Positions 1 to 64,000 of a DNA stretch of 64,000 nucleotides are shown here, in pieces; the stretch's first letter is position 1; each line of letters opens with the position of its first letter. This DNA comes from Acetobacter okinawensis JCM 25146 (GTDB taxonomy: Bacteria > Pseudomonadota > Alphaproteobacteria > Acetobacterales > Acetobacteraceae). The notes under the pieces are model-generated. The model did no database searches, was not told the origin of the DNA, and was given only the letters and a program-made list of their open reading frames with translations. Both the position numbers and the translations under genes were made by a program. The stretch spans positions 62,001 through 126,000 of the forward strand of contig NZ_BAJU01000001.1 of NCBI RefSeq assembly GCF_000613865.1, in the 5' to 3' direction.

Positions 1-2398
1 AAAAACCATCCCACCGCCACAGATCCCCTGCGATCGAGACAAGGCATTGTCCCTGCACCAGCGCCTGCTGGAGTGCGTGCGCATCTGCGCCTTCAGGCAG
101 TAGCCCGGTGGACAGTAACACCCGGTCCAGCTCCGGTGGGGCTGTTATGTGGGCTTTAAGTGGTTGTGCACCGCCGGGTAGGGGGGGCAGCGGTGTGGAG
201 GGGAGTAGTCTCCAGCCCTGTGTGGCGGCGGGGTCTGCGGGGGCATCCAGCCCTTCGGCCAGCGCGGCGGCCAATGCGCTCTCATACGCCTCGGGCACCG
301 TGATCTGGGCAGAAACCGGGTTTTCCGCCACATCACTGTCCTGTCCCAGTGCCTGATCCAGCCCTTCGGCCTGAGCCTGTAGGCGGGTCAACTCGGTCTG
401 GAGCGTGCTGTGCGCCTCGCGCGCGCTGTTCTGTCGGGCCTTGTGGTCGCTTAGCGTCTGCTCGGCCTGTTCCAGTGCGGTACCCGTCTGGGCCAGTGCA
501 TTTTCATGCGCAATGCGGGCCTGCTTGGCCTCCGCTACCACTGTATCGGCAACGGCTTCGGCCCGGACCTTGTCCAACTCGCGCGTCAGGGCCTCAGCTT
601 CAAGCTGGGCACGCTGTTGTGTTGTGCGGGCTGTACGCAGGGCCTCGGCCACGCTGCGCTGGTGTGCCTCGGCCTCCTGCGCGTTCCGGCTGGATTCAGT
701 AAACTCCGTACTGGCTGCGCGGCGTTCGGCCTCCGCTTTTTCCTGTGTGTGGCTGGCCTGTTCCAACGCAGCCGTGGCGCGCTCGCTCTCCGCCTCCAAG
801 GTTGCCAGCATATCCGGGCTGACGAGTGCGGCAAGTGCCTCCGCATGGCGTTTTTCGGCTACGTTCAGCTCGTCTTGCAAGGACTGCATGCGTTGGCGAG
901 CCTGCTGTAGGCTTTTTTGCTGTTCGTCCTGTGCGGCCTGTGCGGCTTGTGCATTGTTTTGGGCAATGGGTAGGTCAATTGCGCACTGCCCGTAAAGGCG
1001 CTCGGCCTCCTCCTGCGCAGCCTTTGCTGCCTGCTGGGCAAGGTTTGCCTGCTCGGCGGCGCGCTGCGCCGTGCTCAGTGCCTGTTCGGAGGGAAGTTGT
1101 CCTTCCAGTTCCGCCAGTTCGGCCTGAATGGCGCTGAGTGCCTGAGATACCCGCTCATGCCGGGTGCTGGCGCTGCTAAGCCCTTCTTCTGCCCGCTCTT
1201 TGCCCGCATGGGCTGCGTTTAATTCGGCTGTCAGCCCGGCTAGCGCCTGTTCGGTCTCCACCTGCCGGGCACTCAGGTCGCGTAACTGCTGCTCGGCATC
1301 GGCTGTGCGGCTGGGCAGGGAGTTCTGGGCGGCCAGAACTTCGGCCATGTCTGCCTTCAGGCGCTCCAGCGTGGCCAGCACGTCCTGTAAGCGGGTCTGG
1401 GCGGCCTGGGCATCGCTTTCGTGCTGCTGGAGCAGTTCGGCCGAGGCCTGAGCCTGTGCTGCTGCGCGTTCTTCCTCCCGCACGACTCCTTCGGCCAGAA
1501 CGCGGCACCGTTCGAGTGCTGTGCGGGCCAAATCGGCTTTTTCGCGCAGGGCGGGCAGGGCCTTGGTGGCTTCAAATTCAGCCAGTACGGCGGTTTCTGC
1601 GGTTTCTTCGTGTTCGCTCAGGCTTTTGCGCGCCTGTGCTGCCGTGGTGGCTGCACGCTCTACGGCCAGTCTGGCGCGTGCATGCAGGACCGCGAGCAAT
1701 TCGGTTTCCGCTTCTCTCAGCGCTGCGGAAATTTCGCGGTAGCGTGTGGCCTCGCGCGATTGTTCGGCAAGGCCGTTCAGCCGCTCGGTCAGTTGCACGC
1801 GGCGGTCTTCGGCGCGGGTGAGGTTGCCTTCGGTTGCGCGGAGTTTGATCTCGGCTTCATGCCTACGGGCGTGCAGGCCGGTAATGCCTGCGGCTTCTTC
1901 CAGAATGCTGCGTCGCTCTTCGGGTCTGGCACCCACCAGCATGGCCACCCGGCCCTGACTGACCATGGCGGAGGAGCGCGCACCCGATGCCAGATCGGCA
2001 AAAAGGGTCTGCACATCACGCGCACGCACGGGGCGGCCGTTAATGCGGTAGTCGCTCCCCGACCCGCGCTCGGCTCTGCGGGTAATCTGGAGTTCATCCA
2101 GATCAGCAAAGGCCGCCGGGCCAAAGCCCTTTGTGCCTTCCAGTGTTACGGTGACCTCGGCCAGCGAGCGGGCGGGCCGCCCGGCTGTGCCCGCAAAAAT
2201 AAGGTCATCCATTTCCCCCCCACGCAGGGAGCGGGCGGAGGATTCGCCCATAACCCAGCGCAGTGCTTCCACCACGTTGGATTTGCCGCAACCGTTGGGG
2301 CCTACAACGCCGGTCAGTCCGGGGAGCAGCTCCACGGTTATGGGGTCGGCAAAGCTTTTGAACCCCACAATGCGGAGGCGAACAAAACGAACCGTCAT
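1..2398 (-). CDS. smc: Chromosome segregation ATPase SMC (N-terminal part, cut by window edge)
   Basis: SMC is the ATPase core of the bacterial condensin that works with ScpA and ScpB to compact and segregate the nucleoid. The frame opens at an ATG at 2398 and stays open to the left edge, so about 799 N-terminal residues are visible. Residues 1-160 are the N-terminal ABC head, with Walker A GPNGCGKSN at about 33-41. From about 170 to 690 the chain is rich in Ala, Glu, Gln and Leu, as expected for the long coiled-coil arm. From about residue 695 (EAYESALAAALAEGL) it looks like the start of the hinge. The C-terminal arm and head lie outside the window. The gene follows the dsbA-like gene by 48 bases on the same strand, so cotranscription is likely. 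Confidence 0.95.
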   Translation of the reverse strand, partial: MTVRFVRLRIVGFKSFADPITVELLPGLTGVVGPNGCGKSNVVEALRWVMGESSARSLRGGEMDDLIFAGTAGRPARSLAEVTVTLEGTKGFGPAAFADLDELQITRRAERGSGSDYRINGRPVRARDVQTLFADLASGARSSAMVSQGRVAMLVGARPEERRSILEEAAGITGLHARRHEAEIKLRATEGNLTRAEDRRVQLTERLNGLAEQSREATRYREISAALREAETELLAVLHARARLAVERAATTAAQARKSLSEHEETAETAVLAEFEATKALPALREKADLARTALERCRVLAEGVVREEERAAAQAQASAELLQQHESDAQAAQTRLQDVLATLERLKADMAEVLAAQNSLPSRTADAEQQLRDLSARQVETEQALAGLTAELNAAHAGKERAEEGLSSASTRHERVSQALSAIQAELAELEGQLPSEQALSTAQRAAEQANLAQQAAKAAQEEAERLYGQCAIDLPIAQNNAQAAQAAQDEQQKSLQQARQRMQSLQDELNVAEKRHAEALAALVSPDMLATLEAESERATAALEQASHTQEKAEAERRAASTEFTESSRNAQEAEAHQRSVAEALRTARTTQQRAQLEAEALTRELDKVRAEAVADTVVAEAKQARIAHENALAQTGTALEQAEQTLSDHKARQNSAREAHSTLQTELTRLQAQAEGLDQALGQDSDVAENPVSAQITVPEAYESALAAALAEGLDAPADPAATQGWRLLPSTPLPPLPGGAQPLKAHITAPPELDRVLLSTGLLPEGADAHALQQALVQGQCLVSIAGDLWRWDGF

Positions 2399-2426
2399 AC
2401 AGATCTGTGTTTTTCTGGTCGGGAGG

Positions 2427-2451
2427 GCTGACTGTTAAAAAAACAGTCAGC
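2427..2451 (-). terminator. Hairpin overlapping the dsbA-like stop codon, between dsbA-like gene and smc
   Basis: Perfect 10-base inverted repeat GCTGACTGTT / AACAGTCAGC with a 5-base A-rich loop on the plus strand (T-rich on the minus strand). It overlaps the stop codon of the upstream gene (2447-2449) and lies just before smc. No clear T-run follows the stem on the minus strand, so it may be a weak attenuator or an mRNA-stabilising hairpin rather than a full terminator. Confidence 0.4.
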
Positions 2452-7290: not shown

Positions 7291-8377
7291 TTATGTCCTC
7301 TTTTTGAATGAAGCAAAAAATGAGGTGGCTCTGTCAAGCAGCAGTTTTGTTTTCTTGATATGTGCTGGCAAAAAATTGGCGGGCAGGGTGGCGGGGTTGA
7401 ACCGGCCGGGCTGAACACGCGGCTCCCGGTTCTGGCGCAGGTCGGCGCAGCATCGGCAACGGCTTTCCATGCTGCCTGCGCCAGCGCCTTGCGGCTGGGG
7501 AACAGGTCAGGGTCCAGCGGTTCATGCAGCACTACGGTTACGTGTGAGCGTTTATGTTGCAGCAGCTGCCACACATGCGGCCCCAGATCCATGTCCCCGT
7601 ACCATGAGAAAACCGGGCGGCGGAAGCGGGAAACCGGCAAGCCCTCCAGCGTGTCATAAACAAGGGATACAGGCTGGATAAGCGGTGCCATGCCGGGCTT
7701 GTAGGTTACGGGCAGCAGGCTCTGGTCCATGCCGTCCTTGAGCTTGGGCAGTTTGGCTATGGCAAAAAAAGCCGACATAAAGGGCAGAACACGTGAGCCG
7801 TCGGACGATGTCCCTTCGGGGAAGAGAATCAGGTTGTCCCCTTCCACCATGCGCTGGATCATCAGATCACGTTCACGGCCGGTGGTGCTGCGCTGGCGGC
7901 TGACAAAAATGGTGCGGCCAATATGGGAGACCAGCCCCATGACCGGCCATTTTTCAATATCTCCCTTGGCCACAAAAACAGATGGCAGCAGCGTGCCCAG
8001 CACAGGCACATCCACCCATGACATGTGGTTGGAAATATAAATGACGGGCCGCTCACCCCGCTTGCGGGCCCGTAGCCCACCTACCGTGCCAGCCCGTTTG
8101 CCGTGGACCGTAATGCGCAGGCCAATAATGCGGCACAGCATACCCCAGATAACGCGGGTCCAGCGGATTTTGGCCGTGCCGGGCACAGGCAGCAGGCAGG
8201 CCTCAAACCCGACGGACAGGGGGACCCACACCAGCAAACCGGCCAGACGTATGGCCGAGCGGGCTTCCCCCACACGGCGGAACAGCACATCGACCACTGA
8301 GGGAGGGGAGAGATCGGGGCGGAGGCAGACGTGCCCGAGGGCAGGGGCTGCGTAGGTTGGTCAGGCTTGGTGCGCAT
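7291..8377 (-). CDS. plsC: Lysophospholipid acyltransferase (PlsC family), two apparent frame breaks
   Basis: 1-acyl-glycerol-3-phosphate acyltransferase-like membrane enzyme of phospholipid synthesis. The central part is clear: a hydrophobic N-terminal segment (GLLVWVPLSVGF), the catalytic NHMSWVD (NHx4D) and FPEGT. As written, the frame begins with a GTG at 8297 that lacks a ribosome site and ends in an odd Cys/His/Pro-rich tail at 7161. Adding one base near 8299 joins it to an upstream ATG at 8377. Adding one base near 7441 (within CCGACCTGCG) gives a natural tail ending at 7291. The restored protein is about 362 residues. Both changes fit the one-base-loss pattern seen across the window. 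Assignment of the family is firm; the ends are inferred. Confidence 0.8.
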
Positions 8378-8626
8378 GGTCCTGCTTCTGCCAGGGGCTG
8401 GCCGGGCAGGCCAAGGAGCGGGCAGTAATGTGGAAGAAACACATAAACATGCGCTCTCTTACCGCGAAGAGGGGTAGGGGGACAATCCATCGCGTGTGAA
8501 GGTTTTTTTGGCAGACAGACCCAAATTTTGTCATGGTAGGGGTATAGGCAGGGTAGATGTATCAAAATCGGGTCTGGGCAACGGGCCACGCAGTGTTTTA
8601 TTCAGCAACCGAACAGACTGGGAATA

Positions 8627-10563
8627 GTGGCCGTTTACAACCGTAATATTCTGGGCAGATTTACCGGGGCGGCGAATCGCCTTCTGGCTGGAGCCGCGCT
8701 GTGGGGCGCGCTGACATATGGTGTGCATGCGGCGGACCCGCAGCCTTATGTGACCAGCCTTGCTCCCACCGGGCAGAGCGACCTTGATACGGCGCTCAAG
8801 GCCTCCTCAGACCTGCTGAGCCTGCAATCCACCCGTGCCGTTGGCCCGTTTGCGCTGGCTGGGCGCGTAAGGAGCGAATACGACCGCCTGCAGGTGGCGC
8901 TGGAAAGCTGTGGTTATTATGCAGGCAAGGTGCATATTCTGCTCCGCAGTGCCAAACAGGGCGTGACCATGGATGGCATGTCCACGGCTCTGGCCTCGTG
9001 GATAGAGAGTGTTCCCGCGAACGAAAAAGTGGATATCAGCATCAAGGTGGACAAAGGCCCGCTTTTTCATCTAGGTCGGTCAAACTGGTGGAAAGTGCCA
9101 CGGGCGTTGCCCCCCATCTGAATGACGCGCAGACAAAGGCGTTTGGCCTGCATACCGGCCAGCCGGCAGTGGCGGCAGATGTGCTGGCGGCCGGTGGCCG
9201 CCTGCTGGATGCCCTGCGCGAGAGCGGGCACGCGCTGGCGCAGGTGGACAAACCCATGGCATACCTGCGCCCGGCTACCAGAACGCTGGATATTGTTTAC
9301 CCCGTAGTGCCCGGTCCCGTGCTTGATATTGGCAAGATCAGTCTGGATGGGCTCAAGCGGATGAACGCTTCGTTCGTACGCAGGCGGCTGACGGTGCATG
9401 AAGGTCAATTGTACCAGCCATCCAGTATTGAGGCCGCCCGGCTGGACCTGGCTTCGCTGGGTGTTTTCTCCAATGTTACGGTCAGGGATGCATCGGACAA
9501 GGCGGTCAATGGCACCATGCCGCTGGACTTTTCCTTTCAGGAAGGTAAGCGGCACGCCATTGGGGCGGAGCTTGGCTATTCCACGGATCTTGGCGCACGC
9601 GTGGGAGCCATGTGGACCCACTACAATCTGCTGGGCAATGCCGAACGCCTACGCCTGACGGCCCTGATTACCGGTCTGGGCGGCTCTGCCCAGCAGGGGC
9701 TGGGCTACGATGTGTATGCTGATTTTTTCAAACCAGACTTTCTGGAGTCCAAACAGAACCTTAATGCCCGGATTGAGGGGTTACGTCAGTTGTTCTGGTC
9801 TTACCGGCAGACAGCACTCCTGCTGCGCGGGGGGATTACCCGCCCGCTGGCCAAGAACTGGACCGGCAACTTTGGTCTGGCCGCCGAGCAGGAACGCATA
9901 GAGCAGTTTGATGAAAGCCGCAGCTACACCATTCTGTCTGCCCCGCTTTCGGGCATGTATGACAACACAGGCGTGGGTAACCCCATAGAACCAGCAACAC
10001 ATGGCGTGCGGGCCAGCATCAACATTACCCCCTCGCTCTCTCTGGGCAGCAAGGGAGCCGGTGAGTCCTTTTTTGCCATCATGAACGCAACAGCCTCCAC
10101 CTATGTGGACCTGCACAAGCTGGGCATAAGCCCGCCGGGGCGCAGTATTCTGGCTTTTCGCGGGACTATTGGCAGTATTCAGGGGGCGAGCACATGGGAC
10201 ATTCCCCCTGACCAGCGCATGTATGCCGGGGGGAGTGCGACCGTGCGTGGCTACCGCTGGCAGGGGGTAGGGCCGCAATACGGCAATACTAAATACGCCA
10301 TCGGTGGCACGTCGCTGGATGCAGGAACGGTGGAATACAGGCAACGCCTGTTCAAAAGTTTCGGCATGGCTGCCTTTGCCGATGCCGGGCAGGTTGGTAG
10401 CAGCAGCATGCCCTTTACCGGCACCCTGCGCGTGGGTGCGGGGGGCGGGGTACGGTATTATACACCCATTGGCCCGGTCCGGCTGGATATTGCGGTGCCA
10501 TTGAACCGTGCGCCACGTGGGGATACGTGGGACCTATACATAGGGCTGGGGGAAACATTCTGA
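8627..10563 (+). CDS. tamA: TamA-type outer-membrane assembly protein (Omp85 family), one frame break
   Basis: Omp85-family outer-membrane beta-barrel that partners TamB in assembling envelope proteins or moving lipids. A signal peptide (ALWGALTYGVHAADP) is followed by POTRA-like domains to about residue 300. A C-terminal barrel of about 320 residues holds GGSATVRGYRWQ and ends in Phe (IGLGETF). The frame breaks near 9073-9076: one base missing in CTAGGTCGG (for example GG for GGG) joins DKGPLFHLG to SVKLVESATG. The restored length is about 645 residues. The start is a GTG with a weak ribosome site. Its stop overlaps the tamB start. Confidence 0.88.
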
Positions 10564-14795: not shown

Positions 14796-15596
14796 TCAAC
14801 CCTGCGGGCCTATGTCCATGACCACAGGCACATGGTCGGAGGGGGAGGGCCAGTCCCGCACATCTTCCAGCACGGACATGTTGGCAAGGTCAGGTACCAG
14901 GTCGGGGGTGACCCATATATGGTCCAGCCTGCGGCCCCGGTTGGACTTGCGCCAGTCCCGGTTACGGTAAGACCACCACGTATAAAGCTTGTCCGCAGGC
15001 GGCACAAAATGGCGCATGGCGTCCACAAAGCCGGTCTGCTGCCAGCGGTTCAGGCGCTCGGTTTCTGGTGGTGTGTGGCTGACAATCTTGAGCAGTTGTT
15101 TGTGGTTCCACACATCATGCTCAAGAGGTGCGATGTTAAAGTCCCCGACCAGCACCGTTCGCGCGGGTTTCTGCCCGGCAAACCACGTGGTCACTTCTTC
15201 CACAAAGGCAAGTTTGTGGGCAAATTTGGGGTTGATTGCAGGGTCTGGCTCGTCCCCCCCGGCGGGGACGTAAAAATCATGCACGGCTATGTCACCCCCC
15301 GGAGCATGAATGGTGGCGGCCACATGGCGGCAATCTTCCTGACCATACCAGACTGGAGTATCTGCGGCGGGTGTAAGCGGCAGGCGGGATAGAATGGCCA
15401 CGCCGTTATAGCCCTTCATCCCCTTGTAGTGCAGGTGCTCAAAACCGAGCGCGCGCACGCCGTCTTGCGGAAAAAGTGCATCAGGCACCTTTGTTTCCTG
15501 CAGGCAGACAACGTCTGGCTGCACGGTGGCACACAGCTTTTCCAGCAGTGGCAGACGCAGGCGGAGGGAATTGATGTTCCATGTCACAAGTCGCAT
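14796..15596 (-). CDS. xthA: Exodeoxyribonuclease III
   Basis: Apurinic/apyrimidinic endonuclease and 3'-5' exonuclease of base-excision repair, 266 residues. It opens with the family signature MRLVTWNINSLR and contains CLQETKVPD (catalytic Glu), HDFYVPAGG, VGDFNIAP and the C-terminal SDHVPVV (catalytic Asp-His). The long open frame upstream is not part of it: the ATG at 15596 begins exactly at the conserved N-terminus. It is convergent with tamB and divergent from the dipeptidase gene. Confidence 0.95.
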   Translation of the reverse strand: MRLVTWNINSLRLRLPLLEKLCATVQPDVVCLQETKVPDALFPQDGVRALGFEHLHYKGMKGYNGVAILSRLPLTPAADTPVWYGQEDCRHVAATIHAPGGDIAVHDFYVPAGGDEPDPAINPKFAHKLAFVEEVTTWFAGQKPARTVLVGDFNIAPLEHDVWNHKQLLKIVSHTPPETERLNRWQQTGFVDAMRHFVPPADKLYTWWSYRNRDWRKSNRGRRLDHIWVTPDLVPDLANMSVLEDVRDWPSPSDHVPVVMDIGPQG

Positions 15597-15711
15597 GCGC
15601 AGGGCATGGCGTATTGCACCGGGCAGAGCAAGTAAAAAGAGGGCCCACTTCCCTGATGGAAACGGGGGAGGAGTCTTGCAATTTTCTGTGCCGCCCCATG
15701 ATATTAAAAGA

Positions 15712-16791
15712 ATGGATACCCAACGCACCCCGCCCGTCCCACCGCAGGCTGCCATAGACCTGCATCGTGCTCTCCTGACGCTGGATAGCCATATTGATAT
15801 TCCATGGCCCGACAGCCGATGCGTTTGAAGATACGCCCCTGCGCAAGGTGGATTTACCCAAAATGCAGCGCGGTGGCATGTCTGCTGGCTGCTTTGTGGC
15901 TTATACCGCACAGGGGGCGGTTACGGCGCAGGCGCATGCACAGGTCCAGCAGGAGTGTCTGGCCATGCTGGATGCCATTAACACCATGCAGGGGACGCAT
16001 AACGGGGTAACAGCGGTCGTGTGTTCGCGCGTTGCCGATATCCGTGCAGCCCATGCAAAGGGTGTGATTGCAGTTATTCCCGCAGTGAAAATGGCTATGG
16101 TATGGGGGATGACCCGGCCATGCTGGACGCGTTTGCACAACGCGGGGCGCGGTATGTCACACTGACGCATAACGGCCATAATGCGCTGGCCGATGCGGCC
16201 ATCCATCGCCCCAGTCTTGGGGATACGCCACAAAAGCACGGTGGTCTTTCCGCCCTTGGGCGGGAAGCGGTGCAAAGGATGAACCGGCTGGGCCTGCTGG
16301 TGGATGTGTCCCACGCATCCAAACAGACCATGTTGCAGGCGGTTGCAGCATCCGCCACGCCAATTGTCGCCAGCCATTCCTGCGTGCGCACATTGTGCGA
16401 CCATCCGCGTAATCTGGATGATGAGCAACTGGACGCGTTGGGGGCCAGCGGTGGGCTGATCCAGATTACCGCCATGCCCGCATTTCTCAAGCCAAAACCC
16501 GAGGAGGGCAGGCGTTCAGCCGGAGTGGCCGACCTTGTGGACCATATAGACTACGTTGTGCGCAGGCTGGGGCCTGCTTACGTGGGCATATCCTCTGACT
16601 TTGATGGTGGTGGCGCTCTGGAGGACTGGCAGGATGCCACGCAGGGGGCGAACATTACGGCCGAGCTGCTCCGACGGGGATATGACAGAAGCGAGATTGC
16701 GGCCTTCTGGGGAGAAAATTTTTTGCGGCTTCTGCAAAAGGCGGAGCAGGTTGCAGAACAAAGCGAGATTGCAGCCCATGCCGCGGACTGA
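15712..16791 (+). CDS. Membrane dipeptidase-like metallopeptidase (M19), two frame breaks
   Basis: Peptidase family M19 (renal-dipeptidase type) enzyme that hydrolyses dipeptides using a zinc pair. The metal motif is DSHID near residue 27, with THNGHNA, DVSHASK and IVASHS further on and GISSDFDGGG near the C-terminus. The frame is broken twice. Near 15808 one base is gained (for example CCC for CC), so DIPWP continues into TADAFEDTPL. Near 16088 one base is lost (GTGAAAA for GTGGAAAA), which restores the conserved VENGYGMGDD. The two changes cancel, giving 359 residues. Physiological substrate unknown. Confidence 0.85.
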
Positions 16792-18952: not shown

Positions 18953-19076
18953 GTGCCGCCATTTTTTGTGTGTTGCAGATGGATGGCAGCCCTGCAGCGG
19001 AATTGTGCGCCAGTGACGACTTTGCGATAGGTCAAACCATTTCAGTCTGGCGGGAAATGCGCTAGAATGCGTGGCA

Positions 19077-19645
19077 ATGTTGACAGACCTGCCCAACGTC
19101 CTGACCCTTTCGCGTATTGTGGCTATTCCCATTGTGGTTGGATTTGCCGCATGGGGAACGCCGCAAACAGACGCGCTTGCGTGCTTGTTGTTCATACTGG
19201 CAGGTATTACCGATTATTTTGATGGCAAGCTGGCCCGCTCACGCCATCAGTTATCCGACTTCGGGCGTATGTTTGACTCCATAGCCGACAAGCTTCTGGT
19301 CGGGGCCTGCCTTATGGTGCTGGCGGGCTTTTTACGCCTACCTTATCAGAGTCTGTGGCCCGCCATTATCATCCTGTGCCGGGAAATTCTGGTGTCGGGC
19401 ATGCGTGAGTATCTGGCCGAGCGGCGTGCAAGCCTGCCCGTAACCCGACTGGCAAAGTGGAAAACCGGGTTCCAGATGACCGCCATCGGCTTTTTGCTGG
19501 CAGGGGATGGTACAAGTGCTCTGCTGGGTATTGGCTGGTTGCCCGTTGCCTGATCGGGGCTGTGCTGCTCTGGATTGCGGGTGTGCTGACAATCATTACC
19601 GGGTGGGACTACCTGAGCAAGGGTTTGCAGCACGTCGATCTTTAG
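19077..19645 (+). CDS. pgsA: CDP-diacylglycerol--glycerol-3-phosphate 3-phosphatidyltransferase, one frame break
   Basis: Integral-membrane enzyme making phosphatidylglycerol phosphate, the first committed step to phosphatidylglycerol and cardiolipin. It opens with LPNVLTLSRI and carries the CDP-alcohol phosphotransferase signature DYFDGKLARSRHQLSDFGRM..D (D-G-x2-A-R-x8-G-x3-D). Four to five membrane helices are expected. As written it stops at 19553. One missing C near 19550 (GCC for GCCC) continues it as VALIGAVLLW to a stop at 19645, with the usual last membrane helix, about 189 residues. The ATG at 19077 was chosen over a GTG two codons earlier. Confidence 0.9.
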
Positions 19646-22498: not shown

Positions 22499-22556
22499 GC
22501 GGTGGTGTTCCTGTAGATGATTGACCCGGAGAGCAGGCTCCGGCACCACAGATGTC

Positions 22557-23755
22557 ATGACGCGGTTTGATAATCTTTTCCAGCAAGGACTGGCTGGTTT
22601 TGCAGCACAGGGGCGCTTGCGCGCATGCAAACAGTGGCATGCGGCAGGGCCGGGGCTTTTGCAGCACCCCGATACGGGGGCAGTTCTGGTCGATTTTTCG
22701 TCCAATGACTATTTGGGGCTACGTACCCATCCCTTGCTGAATGCGCGGGGTATGGCATGGGCGCAGGCAGAGGGCAGTGGGAGTGGAGCCTCGCGGCTGG
22801 TCACAGGCACGCCGCCCCAGACCGTGGCGCTGGAGCAGCGGCTGGCGAGCTTGAAAGGGATGGAGGCCGCCCGCATTTTTTCATCCGGCTGGCAGGCCAA
22901 TGCCTCTGTTGTACCAGCTCTTGCCCGGCTTTCTGCTCAGGTTACAGGAGCGCCTGCCGTTATTGTTGCGGACAGGTTCATCCACGCCAGCCTCTACCAC
23001 GGGTGTGCTGCGGCAGGCGTGCGGCCAAAGCGCTTCCACCATAATGATCTGGCGCATCTGGATACGCTGTTGGGGCAGGAGAGTGGCAACGGCCTTAAAA
23101 TCGTGCTGACCGAGAGCGTGTTCAGCATGGATGGTGACCGGGCGGACATAGAGCAGCTGCGCGCCATAACCTTGCGACACAATGCGTTTTTGTGTGTGGA
23201 CGAGGCACACGCCACAGGCATTCTGGGTACGCAGGGCAAGGGGCTGGTCAACGGGCAGGCGGACCTTGTGGTTGCCACCTTCAGCAAAGCGCTGGGGGGA
23301 TGGGCGCGTTTGTGGCCGCGTCCGAGGCAGTGTGCCGCTGGCTGGATAATACGGCATCGGGCTTTATCTATTCTACCGCACCCTCACCCATGGTGCTGGG
23401 GGCGGTGGACGCAGCACTTGACCTGTTACCCGGTATGGCCGACCAGCGCGCGCATGTGGCAGGCCTTGCCAGTGCGTTCAGGCAGCGCATGGCGCGTGCC
23501 GGGCTGGGTGTGGGGCTGTCTGCCACCCAGATTGTGCCTGTGGTGGTCGGGGCCGAGCATACGGCATTGGCGTTGGCGCGGCTTGTGGAGCAGGCGGGCT
23601 TTCTGGCTGTTGCCATTCGTCCGCCAACGGTGCCTCCCGGTGGGTGCCGCCTGCGGGTGGTGTTCCACGCGCACCATACTGAGGCGCAGATGGAAGGGCT
23701 GGCAGCGGCCATTATTGAGGGCGTTGGGGCCTGTACAGCGGAGATGGAGGGATGA
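22557..23755 (+). CDS. bioF: 8-amino-7-oxononanoate synthase, one frame break
   Basis: PLP-dependent alpha-oxoamine synthase that joins pimeloyl-ACP and alanine to give KAPA. Seen: DFSSNDYLGL, GASRLVTGT, SVFSMDGD, CVDEAHATG and the PLP-lysine segment TFSKALGG. Immediately after SKALGG the frame breaks in a run of six G at about 23295-23300. One more G restores GGMGAFVAASEAVC, and the rest of the protein ends at 23755 (about 399 residues). The ATG at 22557 is preferred because it begins the conserved N-terminus. The stop overlaps the next gene as ATGA. Confidence 0.93.
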
Positions 23756-27854: not shown

Positions 27855-27861
27855 GAATTCG

Positions 27862-41553: not shown

Positions 41554-41594
41554 AGGGGTATCTGTTTTGACTGTATGTAAGAGGGAGTGTGGTT

Positions 41595-43069
41595 GTGGCG
41601 GGTCTGGATCCTGAAGACTGGGAAGAACTGAAAACTCAGGGACACCAGATGCTTGATGAGATGTTGGAGAACATCCGCCACGTATCTCAGGGGCCAGTCT
41701 GGCAACCCATGCCTGCTTCGGTGCGGGATGTTTTTAAAACAGCCCCTCTGCCCGATGCAGGGCAGGAACTGGGCGATCTGTACCAGCAGTTCACGACCAT
41801 GGTGCAACCCTATGCGGTGGGGAACCGGCACCCACGTTTTATGGGGTGGGTGCATGGGGGTGGCACGGCTCAGGGTATGCTGGCTGACATGCTGGCCGCA
41901 GGCTGAACGCCAATCTGGGTGGGCGTGACCATGCACCGGTGGAAGTCGAGCGTATGGTTGTCCGCTGGGCAGCAGAAATGTTTGGCTTCCCCCCCGATGC
42001 AACCGGGGTGCTGGTAACCGGCTCATCCATGGCCAATTTTATTGCCATACTGACCGCGACCCGTAATGTGGTGGATGGGCAGGATATGCGGCTCCACGGC
42101 ATTGGGGGGCGCAGGCTGGTCGGATATGCGGGCGAGAGTGCACATGGCTGCGTGGCACGTGCGTTTGATATGGCCGGGCTGGGTGAGCACGCCCTGCGCC
42201 GCGTCCCGCTGAATGCGGCGTACCAGATGGATACCCTGGCCCTTGAACGCCTGATCGCACAGGACAGGACAGATGGCTTTGAGCCTTTTCTGGTCGTAGG
42301 CACGGCAGGCACCGTGGATACCGGCAGCATTGACCCGCTAAACGCGCTGGCTGACCTGGCTGAGCGTGAGGGGCTGTGGTTCCATGTTGATGGTGCGTTT
42401 GGTGCGCTGGCAAGGTTGGCGCCTGATCTGGCTCCGCTGCTTGCGGGCCTTGAGCGGGCCAACAGTCTGGCCTTTGATTTCCATAAATGGGCGCAGGTCC
42501 CCTACGATGCGGGCTGTGTGCTGGTGCGCGAGCCGGGCAGGCAGGCCGCAGCGTTTGCGCAATCGCTGGCCTACCTCTCGCGCGAGGACAGGGGCCTTGC
42601 CGCTGGGGCTCCTTGGTTTTGTGACCTTGGGCCAGACCTCTCCCGCGGGTTCCGTGCTCTCAAGGTCTGGTTTGCACTGGCCGGATTCGGAACGGAAAAG
42701 CTGGGGCAGGTTGTTACCCACAGTTGTGCGCTGGCACGTGGGCTGGCCGGGCAGGTGCAGACCAGCGCGCACCTGCAACTGCTTGCCCCCGTTACGCTGA
42801 ATGTCGTGTGCTTCCGGGTGGTTACGTCCGAAGTGGAGGATCTGGACTGGCTGAATGGCGAACTGGTGAAGGATCTACAGGTCAGCGGCATTGTTGCTCC
42901 ATCTACCACCCGGATCGGTGGTGTGCTGGCAATCCGCGTTGCTTTGGTCAACCATCGCACGACCGAGGCTGATGTGACCATTCTGCTCGATGCCCTGCAC
43001 TCCTTCATGGAAGTGCGTCTGGCGCAGGTGAGGATGTTGAAGCTGGTGGAAGAACAGGCGCAGGCTTAA
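41595..43069 (+). CDS. Group II PLP-dependent amino acid decarboxylase, one frame break
   Basis: Aromatic-L-amino-acid-decarboxylase type enzyme of about 491 residues. Seen: [60 protein letters not shown] (PLP-pairing Asp) and the Schiff-base segment [13 protein letters not shown] (Lys after His). The frame breaks near 41902: one base missing in GCAGGCTGAAC restores [17 protein letters not shown]. The N-terminal start is a GTG at 41595 or 41589, behind GAGGGAG. The substrate cannot be read from the sequence; there are no linked pathway genes. Confidence 0.87.
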
Positions 43070-44975
43070 GCGCGCCTGCGCGTACGTTTTTCATCAAACA
43101 GGGCGGAAAGGGACTGGAGCATGGTCCCGCCCAGTTCCTCTGCATCGGTAATGGTCACTGCGCGCTGGTAATAGCGGGTCACGTCATGACCAATGCCAAT
43201 GGCTGTCAGTTCCACCGGGCTGCGGTTTTCAATCATATGGATGACCTCGCGCAGGTGGTCTTCCAGATATGAGGCGGGATTGACCGACAGCGTACTGTCA
43301 TCCACCGGAGCGCCATCCGAGATAACCATCAGAATCTTGCGGGCCTCGGGGCGGCTCTTAACCCTGCGCCATGCCCAGAGCAGGGCCTCGCCATCTATGT
43401 TTTCTTTCAGCAGGCCCTCGCGCAGCATCAGGCCCAGATTGGTGCGTGCGCGCCGCCATGGCGTGTCTGCACCCTTGTAAACAATATGGCGCAGGTCATT
43501 CAGGCGGCCGGGGTTTTCGGGTTTGTTGTTCTGCACCCAGAGTTCGCGGCTTTGGCCACCTTTCCATGCGCGGGTGGTAAAGCCCAGAATTTCCACCTTG
43601 ACGCCACAGCGCTCCAGCGTGCGGGCCAGAATATCGCCGCAGGATGCAGCAACGGAAATGGGGCGCCCGCGCATGGAGCCGGAATTGTCGATCAGCAGGG
43701 TGACAACCGTGTCGCGGAACTCCGTGTCTTTCTCCTGCTTGTAGGAGAGGGAGAGGCGGGGGTTGACCACAATGCGTGACAGCCTGCCAGCATCTAGCAT
43801 GCCCTCTTCAAGGTCAAACGACCACGAGCGGGTCTGCTGTGCCATCAGGCGGCGCTGGAGCCGGTTGGCAAGGCGAGAGACAACCCCGTGCAGTGTTGCA
43901 AGCTGAAGGTCCAGCTGGTGCCGTAGGCGCGAAAGTTCGTCAGGGTCACACAGGTTTTCGGCCAGAATTTCTTCATCAAAACTGGTGGTGTAGGCGTGGT
44001 AGCCCTTTGCTGTCTGCCCTGCTTCGATATCCTTGCGGTTGCCCGGTCCTGCGGCGTCCCCCGTTCCTTCGGCCGAACCCGATTCCTGCTCTACTTCTGG
44101 AGTGTTGTCAGCCGCATCTGCGCTCCCTGCCATAAGCTGGGGCTCGGAGACTGCGTCCGACAGGTCGGGGGCGGCACCAGATGTGTCATCTTGCTGCTCG
44201 GGTGGGGGCTGGTCGCTTTCGTCATCATTGGAATCAGGGGCTGTGCCGGATGTGTCCTCCTCGTCCTCCTGATCGGAGAGGGAGTCGTCATCGGTCAGGG
44301 CGCAGGCCGCCAGCAGTTTGCGTGCTGCGCGGGAATAGGCTTTCTGGCTGTCCTGGTCGGCGGCCAGTGTGTCCAATGCGTCCAGCGCGTCCTGCGGTAA
44401 TGTGCGCTTCCACTGCTCCAAAATGGTGCGTGCGGAGTCGGGCAGAGGGATGCCGGTCAGCTTTTCACGCGCAAGCAGTTCAAGCCCGACAATGGGAGAA
44501 AGCTGGGCCGCATCGGTCATGTGTTCCAGACCGGCGGCATGGATTTCCTGCTCAAGCCTCTGGCGCAGGTTGGCGGCAACGCCCTTCATGTGGCGTGCCC
44601 CTACGGCCTCCACGCGGGCCTGCTCCAGTGCGTCATACACCTCGCGCGCAATGGTGTCTGCCGGACGGCGGGCTGCATGCAGGTCAAAGTCATGGTGCTT
44701 CAGGCGCAGGGCCTGTGCATCGGCAGCCCCGCGCAGGCGCTGGGCTTCTTCCTCGTTCAAATTCAGGGAGGGGGAGGAGAGGCGGATTTTCTCTCCCAGA
44801 CTGATCGGGGCCATGGGCATGTTGCCGCTATGGAACGAGACATCCGCCTCTTTGCGGCCACCAAGGGCGCGCAGGGTTGCCTCCGTTGCCTGTTTGAAGG
44901 CATCGGCCGTTTTTCCGCCTCCTCGCGTGAGAGGCGGATGGGGCTGTTGCCCCTGTCTTTTGCCGGATCAGCCAT
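43066..44975 (-). CDS. cobT: Aerobic cobaltochelatase subunit CobT, one frame break
   Basis: With CobS it forms the AAA+ chaperone that drives CobN to insert cobalt into hydrogenobyrinic acid a,c-diamide. It starts [11 protein letters not shown] at 44975. A helical N-terminal region leads to an acidic Asp/Glu/Ser/Pro linker at about 215-315. The C-terminal VWA domain carries the MIDAS motif DNSGS ([11 protein letters not shown]). The frame breaks near 44914: one base missing in AAACGGCC restores [19 protein letters not shown]. The restored length is 636 residues. An internal ATG at 44820 is not the true start. It follows cobS on the same strand. Confidence 0.92.
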
Positions 44976-47082: not shown

Positions 47083-47645
47083 GTGCGGGTCTGCTCCGGC
47101 GGCGTAACCTGCTTGCTCTGGCACCTTTGCTACTGGCGGCCTGCGCCACCACGGCGGGGGTGGAGAGCCCCCCCAATGCTGCGGCAGTCAGCCGGGTAGA
47201 GGCTTATTTTAGAACCGTTAACCTGCACGATGCGCCGTTTACGCAGGTCTGGCCCAATGGCTCTGTAGGGAGCGGGCTGATTACCTACCGCCCCGGCGCG
47301 CTGGATATGCGCTTTACCACCCCGCATGAGATGGAACTCAGGGCATCTGAACGCTCTGCCGTGTTCACGGATGCGCAGAATGGGTCCGAGACCCATATAG
47401 GTCTGGCACACAGCGCGCTGGGCCTGCTGCTGGGTAACCCTGTGCGCCTGTCCGGTCCTGTTATGGTTACGGATGTGCAGCAGCCCCCCGGTATGCTCCA
47501 GCTCTCGCTCACCAGAGCGGAAAACCCCTCCCAGGAGCTGGTGACCCTGCGTTTTAAGGACGCGGGAGGGCGTTTAACACTTTATGATGTGCGCATTCTG
47601 GATGCGCAGCGCAAACTTACGCAAATTCGACTGGACCCGGCGTAA
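47079..47645 (+). CDS. LolA-like outer-membrane lipoprotein carrier with a lipobox
   Basis: Protein of 188 residues. The N-terminus ([19 protein letters not shown]) has an arginine-rich start and a lipobox LLAAC, with lipidated Cys near residue 22. The mature part follows the LolA pattern: [12 protein letters not shown], a pair of beta strands with FTQVWPNG and LDMRFTTP, and [10 protein letters not shown] at the C-terminus. LolA proteins shuttle lipoproteins across the periplasm but are normally soluble; a lipidated copy could sit in a membrane and act as receptor, like LolB. It is coupled to bolA and its end overlaps lipB by 29 bases. Confidence 0.8.
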
Positions 47646-48325
47646 GCTCTACGGGACTTAGGGCGGAGGGCGTGCTGCCAAACACGGTGCGCCACGCTGC
47701 CTCCAGCGCATGGTCCAGATCAGCCATGCTGGCGTTGATGCCCAGCTTTGCAAAGCTGGTCACGCCGTATTCCCGAATCCCGCAAGGGACGATTCCGTCA
47801 AAGTCCGGGAGGCAGGGGCCAGATTGATCGCCACCCCGTGCCAGCTCACCCAGCGTGAGACACGCACGCCAATGGCGGCAATTTTTTCCTCCCCCCCGTT
47901 TGCGGGTTGATGACCCAGACACCCACCCTGCCTTCGCGGACCTCCCCACGCAGACCAAAACTGGCGAGTGCGGTAATAATCCATGCCTCAAGGGCCTGCA
48001 CATATGCGCGCAGGTCGCGCGCTGGCGCAGAGCCGTGCTGGCGTTGCAGGTCAAGCATGACATAGGCCGTACGCTGGCCCGGACCATGATAGGTCCATTG
48101 TCCGCCCCGCCCCGCATGGTAGGTGGGGTAGCCTGACGGGTTGAACAGGTCCTCCGCTCTGGCTGATGTACCGGACGTATAAAGGGGGGGGTGCTCAAGC
48201 AGCCATACGCGCTCCGCCGCCTCACCTGCGCGTATGGATTTGGCAATCTGCTCCATTCTGCTCAGTGCGGCAGGGTAGGGCACCAGTTTTTTGCTTATTT
48301 CCCATAAAATTTGTTCTTTGGTCAT
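47617..48325 (-). CDS. lipB: Octanoyltransferase LipB, two frame breaks
   Basis: Transfers octanoate from ACP to lipoyl domains, the first step of lipoate attachment. Seen: [31 protein letters not shown] and [14 protein letters not shown] with the catalytic Cys. Two one-base losses break the frame. One is in a run of seven C (G on the coding strand) at 47891-47897, restoring [13 protein letters not shown]. The other is near 47816-47819, restoring [16 protein letters not shown]. The full protein, 48325 to 47617, is about 236 residues. It converges with the LolA-like gene. Confidence 0.92.
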
Positions 48326-51250: not shown

Positions 51251-52266
51251 ATGCTGTCCTCTTTAACGGACCCCGCCGGAAGGCGGATTTCCTACCTCCG
51301 CCTTTCTGTGACTGACAGGTGCGACATGCGTGCGTGTACTGCATGTCCGAACACATGTCGTTTTTACCACGCGCGGATGTGCTGGACTTTGAGGAGCTTT
51401 TGCGCCTGAGCCGGGTTTTTGTGCGCCATGGTGTGCGCAGGTTGCGTATTACCGGGGGCGAGCCACTGGTCCGGCGCGATATCGGTTTTTTTTTCAAGGA
51501 GTTGGGGGCGTGGCTTCGCCTGCCAGAGCAGTCTGGCAGACTGGATGAGCTCACGCTGACAACTAACGGCAGCCGTCTGGCCCATTATGCGCCCATTCTG
51601 GCGCAGGCGGGGGTCCGGCGCGTTAACGTCAGTCTGGACTCGCTGGATGAGGCACGCTTTACCCGTTTGACCCGGCGGGGCAAGCTCGCCACCACGCTGG
51701 AAGGCATACGTGCCGCTCGCGCGGAGGGCTTGGCCGTCCGCATAAACACCGTGGCCATGGCGGGGGTCAATGATGATGAATTTGATGCTCTGCTGGCATG
51801 GTGTGGTGAAATTGGCGCGGACCTGTGCCTGATTGAGACCATGCCTATGGGTGATACGGGGGAGGACCGTGCGGCGCAGTATCTTTCGCTTGATGCGGTG
51901 CGCAGGACATTGGCCCAGCGTTGGACGCTGGAGCCGTTGACCTACCAGACCAGTGGTCCTGCACGCTATGTACGTGTGGCGCAAACGGGCAGACGTCTGG
52001 GCTTTATTACGCCCATGAGTCACAATTTCTGCTCCACCTGCAACCGCGTGCGCCTTTCCTGCACCGGGCAGCTCTATACCTGTCTGGGGCAGGAGGATGG
52101 GGTTGATCTGCGCCACCTTATGCGGGGGGGCGCAACAGACGCCGCGTTGGAGGTGGCCATACAGCAGGCCATAGCCCGCAAACCAACCGGGCATGATTTT
52201 TTGCTGGATGCGCAGGCAGGCATTATCTCCGGCCCGCAAAGACATATGAGTGTAACCGGAGGCTGA
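51251..52266 (+). CDS. moaA: GTP 3',8-cyclase MoaA, one frame break
   Basis: Radical-SAM enzyme for the first step of molybdenum cofactor synthesis. It starts MLSSLTDPAGRRISYLRLSV at 51251. The radical-SAM motif is split by a lost base near 51329 (CGTGCG for CGTTGCG), and restoring it gives CDMRCVYCMSEHMSF (CxxxCxxC). Then come RITGGEPLVRRD, NVSLDSLDEARF and the C-terminal cluster motif FCSTCNRVRLSCTG. The end, SVTGG, keeps the conserved GG. Total about 338 residues. Without the correction the gene would wrongly appear to start at 51319. Confidence 0.94.
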
Positions 52267-57721: not shown

Positions 57722-58802
57722 GCAAAGCAACGTGGTCTGCACGACTGAAGAACCTACCCCCGCAGAACTGAACCGGGCGCGCAAGCGGCTGGACGGGTTG
57801 TGGCGGCGTGGCACCGAGTTTTTGGGCACGCAGTACGCCATTCTTGGCGGGGCCATGTCCTGGGTCAGCGAGCGTAATCTGGTTTCTGCCATTTCCAATG
57901 CCGGTGGGTTCGGGGTCATTGCCTGCGGGGCTATGGAACCAGCCCGTCTGGCGGAAGAAATTCAGGCAACCCGCGCCCTGACAGACAGCCCCTTTGGCGT
58001 GAACCTGATTACCATGCACCCCCAGCTCAATGAGTTGGTGCAGGTCTGCCTGGACGCCGGTGTGGGTCATATCGTGCTGGCTGGAGGCATTCCGCCGGGG
58101 GCTGCGATCAAGGCGATCAAGGACGGCGGGGCAAAGGTCATTGCGTTTTCTCCTGCTCTGGTGCTGGCCAAGCGTCTGGTCAAAATGGGTGTGGACGCGC
58201 TGGTGATCGAAGGGGCAGAAGCCGGGGGCCATGTCGGCCCGGTCTCCCTGACTGTTCTGGCGCAGGAAATTCTGCCGCATATTCAGAGCGTTCCGGTCTT
58301 TGTGGCCGGTGGTCTGGGACGGGGGGATGCTCTGCTATCCTATCTGGAACTGGGAGCATCTGGTGGGCAGTTGGGTACGCGCTTTGCCGCGGCCGAGGAA
58401 AGCATTGCTCACGAAAAGTTTAAAAAAGCGTTTGTCCGCGCCGCCGCACGGGATGCCGTAACGTCGGTCCAGCTGGATGACCGCTTCCCGGTCATTCCTG
58501 TTCGCGCACTTGGTAACGAAGGTGGGCGGCAGTTTGTCAGCCATCAGGCCGATGTGATTCGTCGTTTTCAGTCCGGGGAACTCACGCGTGACGCCGCCCA
58601 GTTGGAAATCGAACATTTCTGGGCCGGTGCATTGCGCCGCGCAGTTATTGACGGCGACGTGGAACAGGGCTCTGTTATGGCAGGCCAGTCTGTTGGTATG
58701 GTAACGTCTGTTCAGCCTGTGGCGCAGATCATCGAGGATCTGGTTGAGCAGGCTGTGGTGGCACTGGTGCGTCAACAACGTCGTATGGATGCGGATGGCT
58801 GA
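57714..58802 (+). CDS. Nitronate monooxygenase-type flavin oxidoreductase
   Basis: FMN-dependent TIM-barrel protein of 362 residues in the nitronate monooxygenase (2-nitropropane dioxygenase, YrpB) family. Landmarks: LGGAMSWVSERNLVSAISNAGGFG, IEGAEAGGHVG and VAGGLGRGDALL. The physiological role is unknown; nitronate or enoyl reduction are both possible. The start ATG at 57714 lies inside the lysC end and its own stop overlaps rodZ, so it is part of a lysC-rodZ unit. The gene order is common in acetic acid bacteria as far as I recall. Confidence 0.87.
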   Translation: MSEQSNVVCTTEEPTPAELNRARKRLDGLWRRGTEFLGTQYAILGGAMSWVSERNLVSAISNAGGFGVIACGAMEPARLAEEIQATRALTDSPFGVNLITMHPQLNELVQVCLDAGVGHIVLAGGIPPGAAIKAIKDGGAKVIAFSPALVLAKRLVKMGVDALVIEGAEAGGHVGPVSLTVLAQEILPHIQSVPVFVAGGLGRGDALLSYLELGASGGQLGTRFAAAEESIAHEKFKKAFVRAAARDAVTSVQLDDRFPVIPVRALGNEGGRQFVSHQADVIRRFQSGELTRDAAQLEIEHFWAGALRRAVIDGDVEQGSVMAGQSVGMVTSVQPVAQIIEDLVEQAVVALVRQQRRMDADG

Positions 58803-60091
58803 ATACGCCCAAGGTTCCGAGCAGGATCAAGGCTCGCCTCTGCCCCCCCTCCCTGATGTGGAGCTTGGGGGTAGGCGAGGCTTTGCGTAAGCGCCGGGAG
58901 CAGCTCGGCTGGTCCATCGGGGATGTGGCCGCCTGGTTGCGGATTCGTGGCGTTTATCTGGAGGCGCTGGAGAACGGCAACGCCAGCGTTCTGCCAGCGG
59001 AAGTGTATGCTCTGGGTTTCCTGCGGACCTATGGGCAGGCCCTGGGTTTTGAGCCCGAGCATCTGTTAAAGCTTTATCGGCAGGAAGGCCGGCTGGGTGT
59101 GCGTAAGCCCGAGCTGGATTTCCCCGACCCACCACCAGACCGCCGCCTGCCACCAGCCGTCAGCATTTCGTTGGGTTTGGCTGTTATTCTGGCAAGCTAT
59201 ATTGGTTGGTACTGTTTTGTCGGGCATGTTCCCCCTGCACCAGAGCGCGTGCCGCCTGTAGCAAGCCTTATGCCGGGTGAGAGTGCAAAAAATGCACCAT
59301 CACCTCAGGTGGCCTCCATTCTGCCGGACCATAATGTCGCGCAGGTTCCACCGGTGCCTGTGGTGGCGCAGGTGGTCCCGCTGCAAAATGCGCCATCTGT
59401 GCAAAATGAAGCTCAGAGCACACCCGCACCTTCGCCAACTACACCCGTGGAGGGGGCGGTGGTTCCTCAATCAGTCAATCCTGTTGCGTCGGTGCCAGTA
59501 CAGCCTGCGGCAGAACCCGCAGAGCATAACGCGCCCGACGTAGCCAATGGCACACAGGATGCTCCTCTTACGCTCAAGGCACTTGCAGCAAGTTGGGTGC
59601 AGGTCAGGAACGTGGGTGGCAAGGTGGTGTACGACCACATCTTGCAGCCGGGCGATGCGTGGACGGTGCCCGCCGATAATGGGCCTTACACTCTGACTGT
59701 GGGGAACGCAGGCGGCATAGCCCTTGCACAAGGCAGCATCACAACCCCACCTTTGGGGAAGAATGGCGCTGTTCTGCGGCATATTGCCCTAACGCCGGAT
59801 GCTGTGCGGCAGGTGCAGACTGGCGGTAGTCTCAATTCTGTTGCTACCCCTGCGGTACCCGTTGTGGCGTCGCCGGCAGTGGGAGGGGCAGCGTTGCCTG
59901 TCCAAAGCGTAACGGCGGATAAACCGAAGGCTGATGTGTCCGCCGTACCTGTTGTTGGGGCGGGAGAGGGCAGTGCTGGCGCGCCTTTAGCCAGTGCGGC
60001 CAAACCACCTCTGCACAGTGCGGCACCTCCTGCGGAACCCAGCGCGGATGACCTGAATGCCCGCCAGCTTAATGGGCTTGGCGCGCACTGA
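58795..60091 (+). CDS. rodZ: RodZ-like HTH / DUF4115 membrane protein, one frame break
   Basis: Cell-shape protein linking MreB to the membrane. Starting MAEYAQGSEQ at 58795, it reads into an XRE-type HTH (GEALRKRREQLGWSIGDVAAWLRI), one membrane helix (SISLGLAVILASYIGWYCF), a long Pro/Val/Ala/Gln-rich periplasmic linker (about 135-250), the DUF4115 domain (LTLKALAASWVQVRN, LQPGDAWTVP) and a Pro/Ala-rich tail. The frame breaks in a run of five G at 58867-58871; removing one G gives PDVELGVGEALRKRRE. This is a gain rather than a loss. The restored length is about 431 residues. Confidence 0.87.
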
Positions 60092-60229: not shown

Positions 60230-61389
60230 ATGAGCGGCTACCGGCCTTACCAGCATATCGAACGTCGGAAATCTCGGCAGATCCACGTCGGCAAGGTAGC
60301 CGTCGGTGGGGATGCCCCGATTTCGTCCAGACCATGACCAACACACTGACCAGCGACGCACAGGCGACTATTGAGCAGATTCGCCGCGCCGAACTGGCTG
60401 GGGTGGATATCGTGCGTGTTTCCTGCCCCGATGAGGAGAGCACGGCAGCACTGGCTGAAATTGTAAGGGAAGTGAATGTGCCCATCGTGGCCGATATTCA
60501 TTTCCACTATAAACGCGCGATTGAGGCCGCCAAGGCCGGGGCTGCGTGCCTGCGTATTAACCCCGGCAATATCGGCAGCGCCGAGCGTGTGCGTGAGGTG
60601 GTGCAGGCAGCTAAGGATTATGGCTGCTCCATCCGTATTGGCGTGAACGCGGGTTCGCTGGAAAAGCATCTGCTGGAAAAATACGGCGAGCCTAACCCGG
60701 AAGCTCTGGTGGAAAGCGCTCTCGAACACGCTAAAATTCTGGAAGATCACGATTTCCGGGAATTCAAGATCAGCGTCAAGGCGTCTGACGTGTTCATGGC
60801 GGTTGCCGCGTATCAGCAACTGGCTGATGCGTGCGATTACCCGCTGCATATTGGCATTACCGAAGCAGGCAGCAAGCGTGCCGGTACGGTCAAATCCTCC
60901 ATCGGGCTTGGCAATCTGCTCTGGGCTGGGGTGGGTGACACCATGCGTGTCTCCCTTTCCGCAGCCCCCGAGGAGGAAGTGCTGGTCGGCTGGGATATTC
61001 TTAAATCCCTTGGTCTGCGCCACCGTGGGGTCAAGATCATTTCCTGCCCGTCCTGCGCACGTCAGGGCTTTAATGTGGTGGAAACGGTCCAGACACTCGA
61101 AGACCGTCTGGCCCATATCAAAACCCCGCTTACCCTTTCCATCATCGGGTGCGTGGTCAATGGCCCGGGCGAAGCGCTTATGACCGACCTTGGGGTGACC
61201 GGGGGTGGTTCTGGCCGCCACATGGTTTACTCCGCTGGCAAGCAGGACCATACCATTGCTGCTGGTGACATGATCAACCATGTTGTCGAACTGGTTGAAG
61301 AGCGTGTGGCAGCTATTGAAGCCGCAGAAGCGCTTGCCAAGCAGGAAGGGGTTACCCCCGAACTGCCGGATATGGCATCCGCTAAATAA
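60230..61389 (+). CDS. ispG: 4-hydroxy-3-methylbut-2-en-1-yl diphosphate synthase IspG, one frame break
   Basis: Iron-sulfur enzyme of the MEP isoprenoid pathway. It starts [20 protein letters not shown] at 60230, behind AAGGA. One base is missing near 60329 (ATTTCGTCC), and restoring it gives [17 protein letters not shown]. Then come [35 protein letters not shown] and the cluster cysteines [10 protein letters not shown] and GCVVNGPGE. About 386 residues in total. Without the fix the gene seems to start with an unrelated N-terminus at 60223. Confidence 0.94.
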
Positions 61390-62770: not shown

Positions 62771-63825
62771 ACCTTGATGAGCGGCTGGACCGTATTGCCA
62801 GTCGGGCGCTTGAGTTGGAAGCGCATCTGGCGAGCGGGTTAAGTGGGGATGCCTTTACGCAGGCATCCCGCGAGTATGCTGAAATTGAACCGGTTGTTGC
62901 CCGTATTAACGACCTGCGCGCAACCGAGTTAAGCATTGTGCAGGCAGAATCCCTTCTGTCCGACCCTGAAATGCAGGAGCTTGCGGGCGAAGAGCTTGCG
63001 GAACTGCGTGAAAAACTGCCCCAATTGCAGCGTGAGGTCCGTCTGGCGCTTCTTCCCAAGGACGTGGCGGACGAGCGCAGCGCAATTCTGGAAGTGCGCC
63101 CCGCTGCCGGGGGGGACGAGGCAGCCCTGTTTGCCGCAGAACTGTTTGACCTGTACCGCCGTTATGCGGACCTTAAAGGCTGGCGCTTTACCGTTATGGA
63201 TTATGACGAGAGCGAACTTGGCGGCCTGCGTGGTGGTATTGCCGAAATTAACGGCAAAAGTGTTTTTGCCCGCCTTAAATACGAATCTGGTGTGCACCGT
63301 GTGCAGCGCGTGCCTGCGACCGAGGCACAGGGGCGTATCCATACATCCACCGTTACTGTGGCCGTGCTGCCAGAGGCGGAAGAGGTGGATGTCACGATTA
63401 ACGAAGCCGAACTGCGTATAGATGTTTTTCGGGCTTCGGGCGCTGGTGGGCAGCATGTGAACAAAACCGAAAGTGCTGTGCGCATTACCCATCTGCCGAC
63501 CAATATTGTCGTGTCCATGCAGGAAGAAAAAAGCCAGCATAAAAACCGTGCCAAGGCGATGAAGATCCTGCGGGCCCGTCTGTACGAACGTGAGCGCGAG
63601 CAGGCCCATGCGCATCGCGCTGCAGACAGGCGCTCACAGGTAGGAACGGGGGATAGGTCAGAGCGGATCCGGACCTATAATTTCCCGCAGGGGCGGGTGA
63701 CGGACCACCGGATCAACCTGACGCTGTACAAGATCGATCGGGTCATGCTGGGTGAGCTGGACGAGTTTGTGGATGCGCTGACGCAGGAAGAGCAGGCCGC
63801 CCTTATGGCGGATGCGGGCTTTTAA
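62767..63825 (+). CDS. prfA: Peptide chain release factor 1
   Basis: Stop-codon reader for UAA and UAG, 352 residues. It has the PxT recognition motif ([14 protein letters not shown]) and the catalytic GGQ loop ([16 protein letters not shown]). The C-terminus is normal and intact. Coupled to hisS by a 4-base overlap. No prmC follows; the next gene is on the other strand. Confidence 0.97.
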
Positions 63826-63830
63826 CCTGT

Positions 63831-64000
63831 TTAGCTGATCGGGGTGGAGCAGACCTCCCCCCGACCGGGGATGCGCTCGGCAGCTTCGGGGGCTTGTGGG
63901 TCAACCAGATAAAAATCGGTAAAGCCACCAGAGCCTAAAGCGTAAAAGTGGCGGCCATCGGGGTTGTGTAGAAGACCACTACTGCTGACCTCATGCGTTT
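63831..64000 (-). CDS. C-terminal end of an unidentified protein (cut by window edge)
   Basis: The frame enters from the right edge and stops with TAA at 63831-63833, giving about 55 residues with LLHNPDGRHFYALGSGGFTD and ending ERIPGRGEVCSTPIS. The Phe/Tyr/Gly-rich stretch suggests a folded beta domain, but I do not recognise the family. It converges on prfA with 5 bases between stops. Confidence 0.6.
   Translation of the reverse strand, partial: THEVSSSGLLHNPDGRHFYALGSGGFTDFYLVDPQAPEAAERIPGRGEVCSTPIS

Follow-up and report, generated by a model that had tools for sequence, protein, structure and literature searches.

Do the frame breaks that interrupt so many genes of the Acetobacter okinawensis JCM 25146 draft belong to the organism, or to the sequence deposited for it? 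The stretch of DNA that raises this question, 64,000 nucleotides long and referred to here as the window, covers positions 62,001-126,000 of C127, a contig of 293,529 bases in a genome of 3,163,163 bases, 127 contigs and 92.1% completeness. From the evidence set out below we hold it as close to certain that the breaks are consensus errors of the draft assembly and that the cell itself carries intact genes; the reads would be expected to restore the missing bases. The phenomenon is a defect of the draft's consensus and not a feature of the organism, and as such is without biological novelty but of some practical value.

Frame breaks in the window

The genome of A. okinawensis DsW_060 matches the window in a single end-to-end alignment at 95.8% DNA identity. 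We called DsW_060 genes by conservation and codon-position bias and placed them on the window by frame-aware protein-to-DNA alignment; the set comprised 56 genes after three antisense ORFs had been taken out, three genes put in and one more added in trimmed form, and two of the 56 overrun the window ends. With these queries 24 frame changes were obtained in 16 genes of the window. One of the changes, at about 15,690 in the Peptidase_M19 gene, was judged to lie upstream of the true start, since it falls before residue 45, A. lambici and A. peroxydans are out of frame there too, and the Pfam M19 domain starts only at residue 61; the corresponding loss, at 15,693, was treated as non-coding, leaving 23 coding breaks. 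Base-level alignment added one further break, at the end of thiG (32,789), giving a final tally of 24 coding breaks in 17 of the 56 genes. The first-pass annotation, made from the letters of the window alone, had proposed about 23 frame breaks in 16 genes, and it proved right to the gene: 23 coding breaks fall in precisely those 16, and only thiG had escaped it.

Measured against DsW_060, every one of the 24 breaks is a loss, 21 of one base and three of two bases (two-sided P about 1e-7 against a 50:50 expectation). The two-base losses, at 15,814, 36,640 and 58,862, have the same effect on the frame as a gain of one base, and the earlier division into 20 losses and three gains stands for the losses but not for the gains, the three sites being two-base losses relative to DsW_060. 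Two further sites of frame-changing coding indels are without consequence: position 41,552, where an insertion coincides with a stop codon and the ORF keeps its 343 aa, and the rodZ-type gene, where the members of an indel pair cancel each other. Counted per 4 kb, the 27 frame-changing coding indels (a figure that includes the stop-codon insertion and a self-cancelling pair) are Poisson-like, with a variance/mean ratio of 1.00. A bad patch of low coverage was considered as the cause and dropped, given that the indels show no clustering in the window by this measure.

Genes carrying the breaks

Names were assigned from NCBIfam and Pfam, and the labels plsC, tamA, bioF, moeA, thiO, cobT, rodZ and decarboxylase denote the best model or domain, below the NCBIfam cut-offs. 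Read along the window, the first broken gene encodes a plsC-like acyltransferase (7291..8377, minus strand; Pfam Acyltransferase PF01553, with all NCBIfam models below cut-off) and has breaks at about 7,451 and 8,295. It is followed on the plus strand by the gene of a tamA/BamA-type outer-membrane protein (8555..10563; TamA and BamA NCBIfam models below cut-off), broken once at about 9,075, and by the Peptidase_M19 gene (15581..16791, plus strand; named from Pfam), in which coding breaks at about 15,814 (two bases) and 16,086 accompany the loss before the likely start. Also on the plus strand, pgsA (19071..19645), which scores above the cut-off of TIGR00560, is broken at about 19,548, and a bioF-type gene (22521..23755; TIGR00858 best, below cut-off) is broken at about 23,293, in a G7 run.

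Three genes on the minus strand come next. A moeA-type gene (26659..28178; MoeA model best, below cut-off) has one break at about 27,173, an ftsB/DivIC-type gene (28275..28603; Pfam DivIC) has one at about 28,340, and eno, encoding enolase (28786..30064; NCBIfam), has two, at about 28,983 and 29,455. This eno is the sole copy found in the genome; a second, intact copy was looked for there and not found.

The plus strand then carries a thiO-type gene (30805..31810; TIGR02352, 1 bit below cut-off) with breaks at about 31,292 and 31,605; thiG (32020..32795), in which the break at about 32,789 sits at the extreme end and lengthens the ORF by 12 aa, to 270 aa versus 258 aa in DsW_060; mfd (35936..39489), with three breaks, at about 36,640 (two bases), 37,480 and 39,321; and a gene for a PLP-dependent decarboxylase (41589..43069; Pfam), broken at about 41,900. 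On the minus strand lie a cobT-type gene (43066..44975; CobT model just below cut-off), whose one break, at about 44,904, is not in a run, and lipB (47617..48325), with breaks at about 47,810 and 47,894. The last three broken genes, all on the plus strand, are moaA (51251..52266; break at about 51,329), a rodZ-type gene (58732..60091; about 58,862, two bases) and ispG (60230..61389; about 60,323).

Relative to DsW_060 the rodZ-type gene has also lost 15 and 3 bases in frame and carries the +1/-1 pair that cancels itself out, and with 85% protein identity it is less conserved than any other broken gene; these further differences look like natural variation. Elsewhere in the window, at 55559-57559 on the minus strand, a 666-aa ORF fuses a ubiG-like gene (labelled by eye) with a long antisense ORF over the plus-strand ORF 56453-57721, and is a shadow ORF of the kind that a naive gene caller would list.

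Extent over the genome and comparison with relatives

For comparison with other stretches and other genomes we counted core breaks, defined as those located past residue 60 and over 15 residues short of the protein end. With the same 56 DsW_060 queries the window has 18 core breaks in 48.9 kb, versus none in 51.4 kb of A. lambici, and the more diverged proteins of A. garciniae, A. cerevisiae and A. peroxydans gave 4, 2 and 3. Five other stretches of the draft (140 kb, on C127, C114 and C120) were compared through a cruder gene set, for which DsW_060 ORFs had to reach 80 aa and show codon-position bias; in their 99.1 kb of core coding sequence we counted 32 core breaks, all of them losses. For the six stretches together, again with DsW_060 queries, 50 of 50 core breaks are losses (148 kb of core coding sequence). 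Four +1 frame changes were seen overall in the five stretches; all four fall at or before residue 60 and hence outside the core count.

The compared total amounts to about 204 kb of 3.16 Mb, and extrapolating its rate would put the genome-wide number on the order of 900 breaks. Coding breaks affect 17 of 56 genes in the window, and 37 of 114 genes are affected in the five other stretches, where all frame changes are taken and the gene set is the cruder one; ORF calling would split or lose nearly one in three of the sampled genes. The earlier estimate, a quarter of the genes, was if anything low.

The scan is not free of background. With A. lambici queries the window gave 21 core changes (one of them a +1), DsW_060 itself gave 3, and three other species gave 7-9; this background probably stems from ORFs that were miscalled or have diverged. 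A search for mfd in 200 genomes of the family returned one uninterrupted match for at least 150 of the 199 others, and JCM 25146 is absent among the matches listed; in the tally it has four matches, and two of the 49 remaining family genomes have no match at all.

Positions 1-20000 of C125, another contig of JCM 25146, gave patchy matches to DsW_060, with 75% identity over about 8 kb. This stretch is possibly strain-specific and was left out of the comparison.

Base and run-length signature of the losses

Twenty-two of the 24 coding losses are of G or C. Sorted by run length in DsW_060, eight fall in pairs, 11 in triplets, two in longer runs (the G7 at 23,293 and the C5 at 29,455) and three at unrepeated bases. 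Runs are thus involved as the first-pass annotation had noticed, but the G/C runs of 4-8 to which it assigned several breaks are not the typical site: only two of the 24 lie in runs of four or more, and 19 lie in runs of two or three.

The same preference emerges from the six aligned stretches (204 kb), in which 29 of 4,839 G/C triplets carry a loss versus one of 2,384 A/T triplets. G/C runs of four are hit more rarely (3 of 1,333) than G/C triplets, and six triplets had lost two bases. Expressed per 1000 runs of length one to seven or more, losses in G/C runs number 0.14, 0.94, 5.99, 2.25, 5.84, 0 (99 runs) and 66.7 (3 of 45), and those in A/T runs 0.35, 0.50, 0.42, 1.11, 0, 14.9 and 96.2, with long A/T runs gaining bases as well. 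Loss is frequent at lengths of seven and above in both classes, but such runs are few.

The 65 G/C losses in the six stretches are balanced between the two bases (G 32, C 33). Around the G/C runs of two or three that suffered a loss, A precedes the G run 20 times where 11.9 were expected, and the second base after the G run is G 5 times (13.5 expected) and T 17 times (9.5 expected); beyond these mild base biases no motif was found at these loss sites. A profile this odd, with its short-run peak at G/C triplets, its two-base triplet losses and its A before the G run, could serve as a fingerprint of the platform.

Asaia drafts with nearby accessions

Assembly accessions close to that of A. okinawensis (GCF_000613865; PMC9729256) are given in PMC4596401 for Asaia astilbis (GCF_000613845) and Asaia prunellae (GCF_000613885), and PMC8156966 lists the Asaia prunellae JCM 25354 draft as BAJV. 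Using Asaia siamensis queries, we found 19 core breaks in Asaia prunellae JCM 25354, with 15 of 59 genes affected, and one in Asaia krungthepensis; using Asaia krungthepensis queries, Asaia prunellae again gave 19, with 14 of 57 genes affected, and Asaia siamensis gave one. Of 25 frame-change sites inspected in Asaia prunellae, 13 showed a gap on which both references agreed, and all 13 are losses, 12 of them of G or C, ten from runs of two or three and one of an unrepeated T. At the other 12 sites either the two references conflict or no gap is present, and some of the gaps are insertions.

The similar Asaia defect would be accounted for by a common sequencing or assembly batch, and the accession numbers, as printed in papers and not taken from deposit metadata, suggest that the JCM 25146 and Asaia prunellae drafts may share one; we infer that they share platform and pipeline also. 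Table 1 of PMC8156966 gives 3,482, 3,583 and 3,774 CDS for three JCM Asaia drafts, versus 2,896 for Asaia bogorensis NBRC 16594, a genome of similar size, and counts this high are what split genes would give.

Selection and alternative explanations

It might be supposed that nearly all of the 24 breaks are errors and that a few are genuine indels, the losses at 44,904 (T) and 47,894 (A), whose unrepeated bases set them apart from the main class, being the obvious examples. Yet cobT and lipB, the genes concerned, have a protein identity to DsW_060 that is printed as 1.00, and an unrepeated T also occurs among the agreed Asaia losses. We consider such a mixture unlikely.

A second alternative is genuine decay, or a mutator strain in which a replication or repair defect had produced real mutations. 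The losses are indeed present in the deposited sequence, and for the Asaia astilbis JCM 15831 draft, described as possibly 'highly erroneous', a high mutation rate was offered as the alternative (PMC4596401). Against this, selection is not relaxed in the broken genes: codon position 3 accounts for 775 of 965 substitutions (80.3%) in the 17 broken genes versus 1,249 of 1,573 (79.4%) in the 39 intact ones (P = 0.61), and for 81.5% of the substitutions downstream of the first break. Further, the only eno found in the genome lies in three pieces, and mutS, which alone was looked at in this connection, is one uninterrupted frame of 894 aa. Slippage mutators prefer long runs and also produce gains, whereas the coding breaks here are only losses, mostly in runs of two or three, and a similar pattern is seen in a second genus, Asaia. 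Taken with these observations, decay or a mutator strain appears very improbable.

The position of the losses relative to genes bears on the same point. Of the G/C-run losses in the window 21 of 23 are coding, where 21.7 would be expected from the coding share, whereas six of seven A/T-run indels lie outside genes and one is coding (P = 0.0003). The G/C-run losses are therefore blind to gene boundaries, occurring in coding sequence in the proportion expected without selection, whereas the A/T-run indels avoid genes. The selection data, the broken sole eno, the coding share, the other stretches and the Asaia draft all support the view, already put forward in the first reading of the window, of systematic assembly or read error and not gene decay. 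Under consensus error, one base, and at times two, would have been dropped during sequencing at scattered sites, mainly in G/C runs of two or three, with G and C affected equally and gene boundaries disregarded.

That the breaks are real and rescued by programmed frameshifting or transcriptional slippage we find barely credible: slippage is conceivable at the breaks in the G7 and C5 runs, but 19 of the 24 are in runs of two or three and three are in no run, no frame change was found at the break sites in the four other species scanned, mfd would need three events and eno, thiO, lipB and the plsC-like and M19 genes two each, and no common motif emerges from the sites, apart from mild biases such as the A before the G run. 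That two genera of acetic acid bacteria undergo a real mutational process which only removes bases, at G/C pairs and triplets, and that their cells live on rescued frames, merits hardly any belief.

Known systems, platform and consequences

Type-strain assemblies flagged for 'many frameshifted proteins' are described in PMC10228379 (GCA_010671665.1), and JCM 25146 resembles them in that small indels arising from faulty sequencing or assembly break many genes; it differs from what is described there in that only losses occur among its core breaks against DsW_060. Among JCM drafts of acetic acid bacteria, that of Asaia prunellae (GCF_000613885) has a similar loss-dominated signature, but four of its 19 core changes are opposite in sign (+1 or +2). 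Listeria, in which Ion Torrent errors have been profiled, is AT-rich. The Ion Torrent homopolymer indels reported for Listeria in PMC12046094 are like those of JCM 25146 in that deletions exceed insertions and otherwise normal genes are broken; the single-base indels in that profile lie in runs that average 5.5 in length (with three as the shortest run counted) and affect adenine most, whereas the JCM 25146 losses are mostly in G/C runs of two or three. Since the two run profiles differ, we leave the platform unnamed. No paper on the frame breaks of the JCM 25146 draft, or naming its platform, was found in the limited literature searched.

PMC9729256 and PMC13209655 both include the A. okinawensis type-strain draft in their genome tables, and the draft is thus in use in comparative studies. 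Any pathway gaps, pseudogene totals or inflated gene numbers derived from it would be false: in the living cell the genes are almost certainly not broken, but an automatic gene list made from the draft will split or miss many of them. Sister drafts of this kind could also be recognised by the loss signature.

In Asaia prunellae mfd itself is whole; the second-best mfd-like helicase frame in that draft is 437 aa, versus 715-726 aa in five other Asaia genomes. Two more Asaia genomes, G228 and G231 in our collection, have the mfd-related helicase gene split, and in G231 mfd is split too; both are candidates for the same draft defect.
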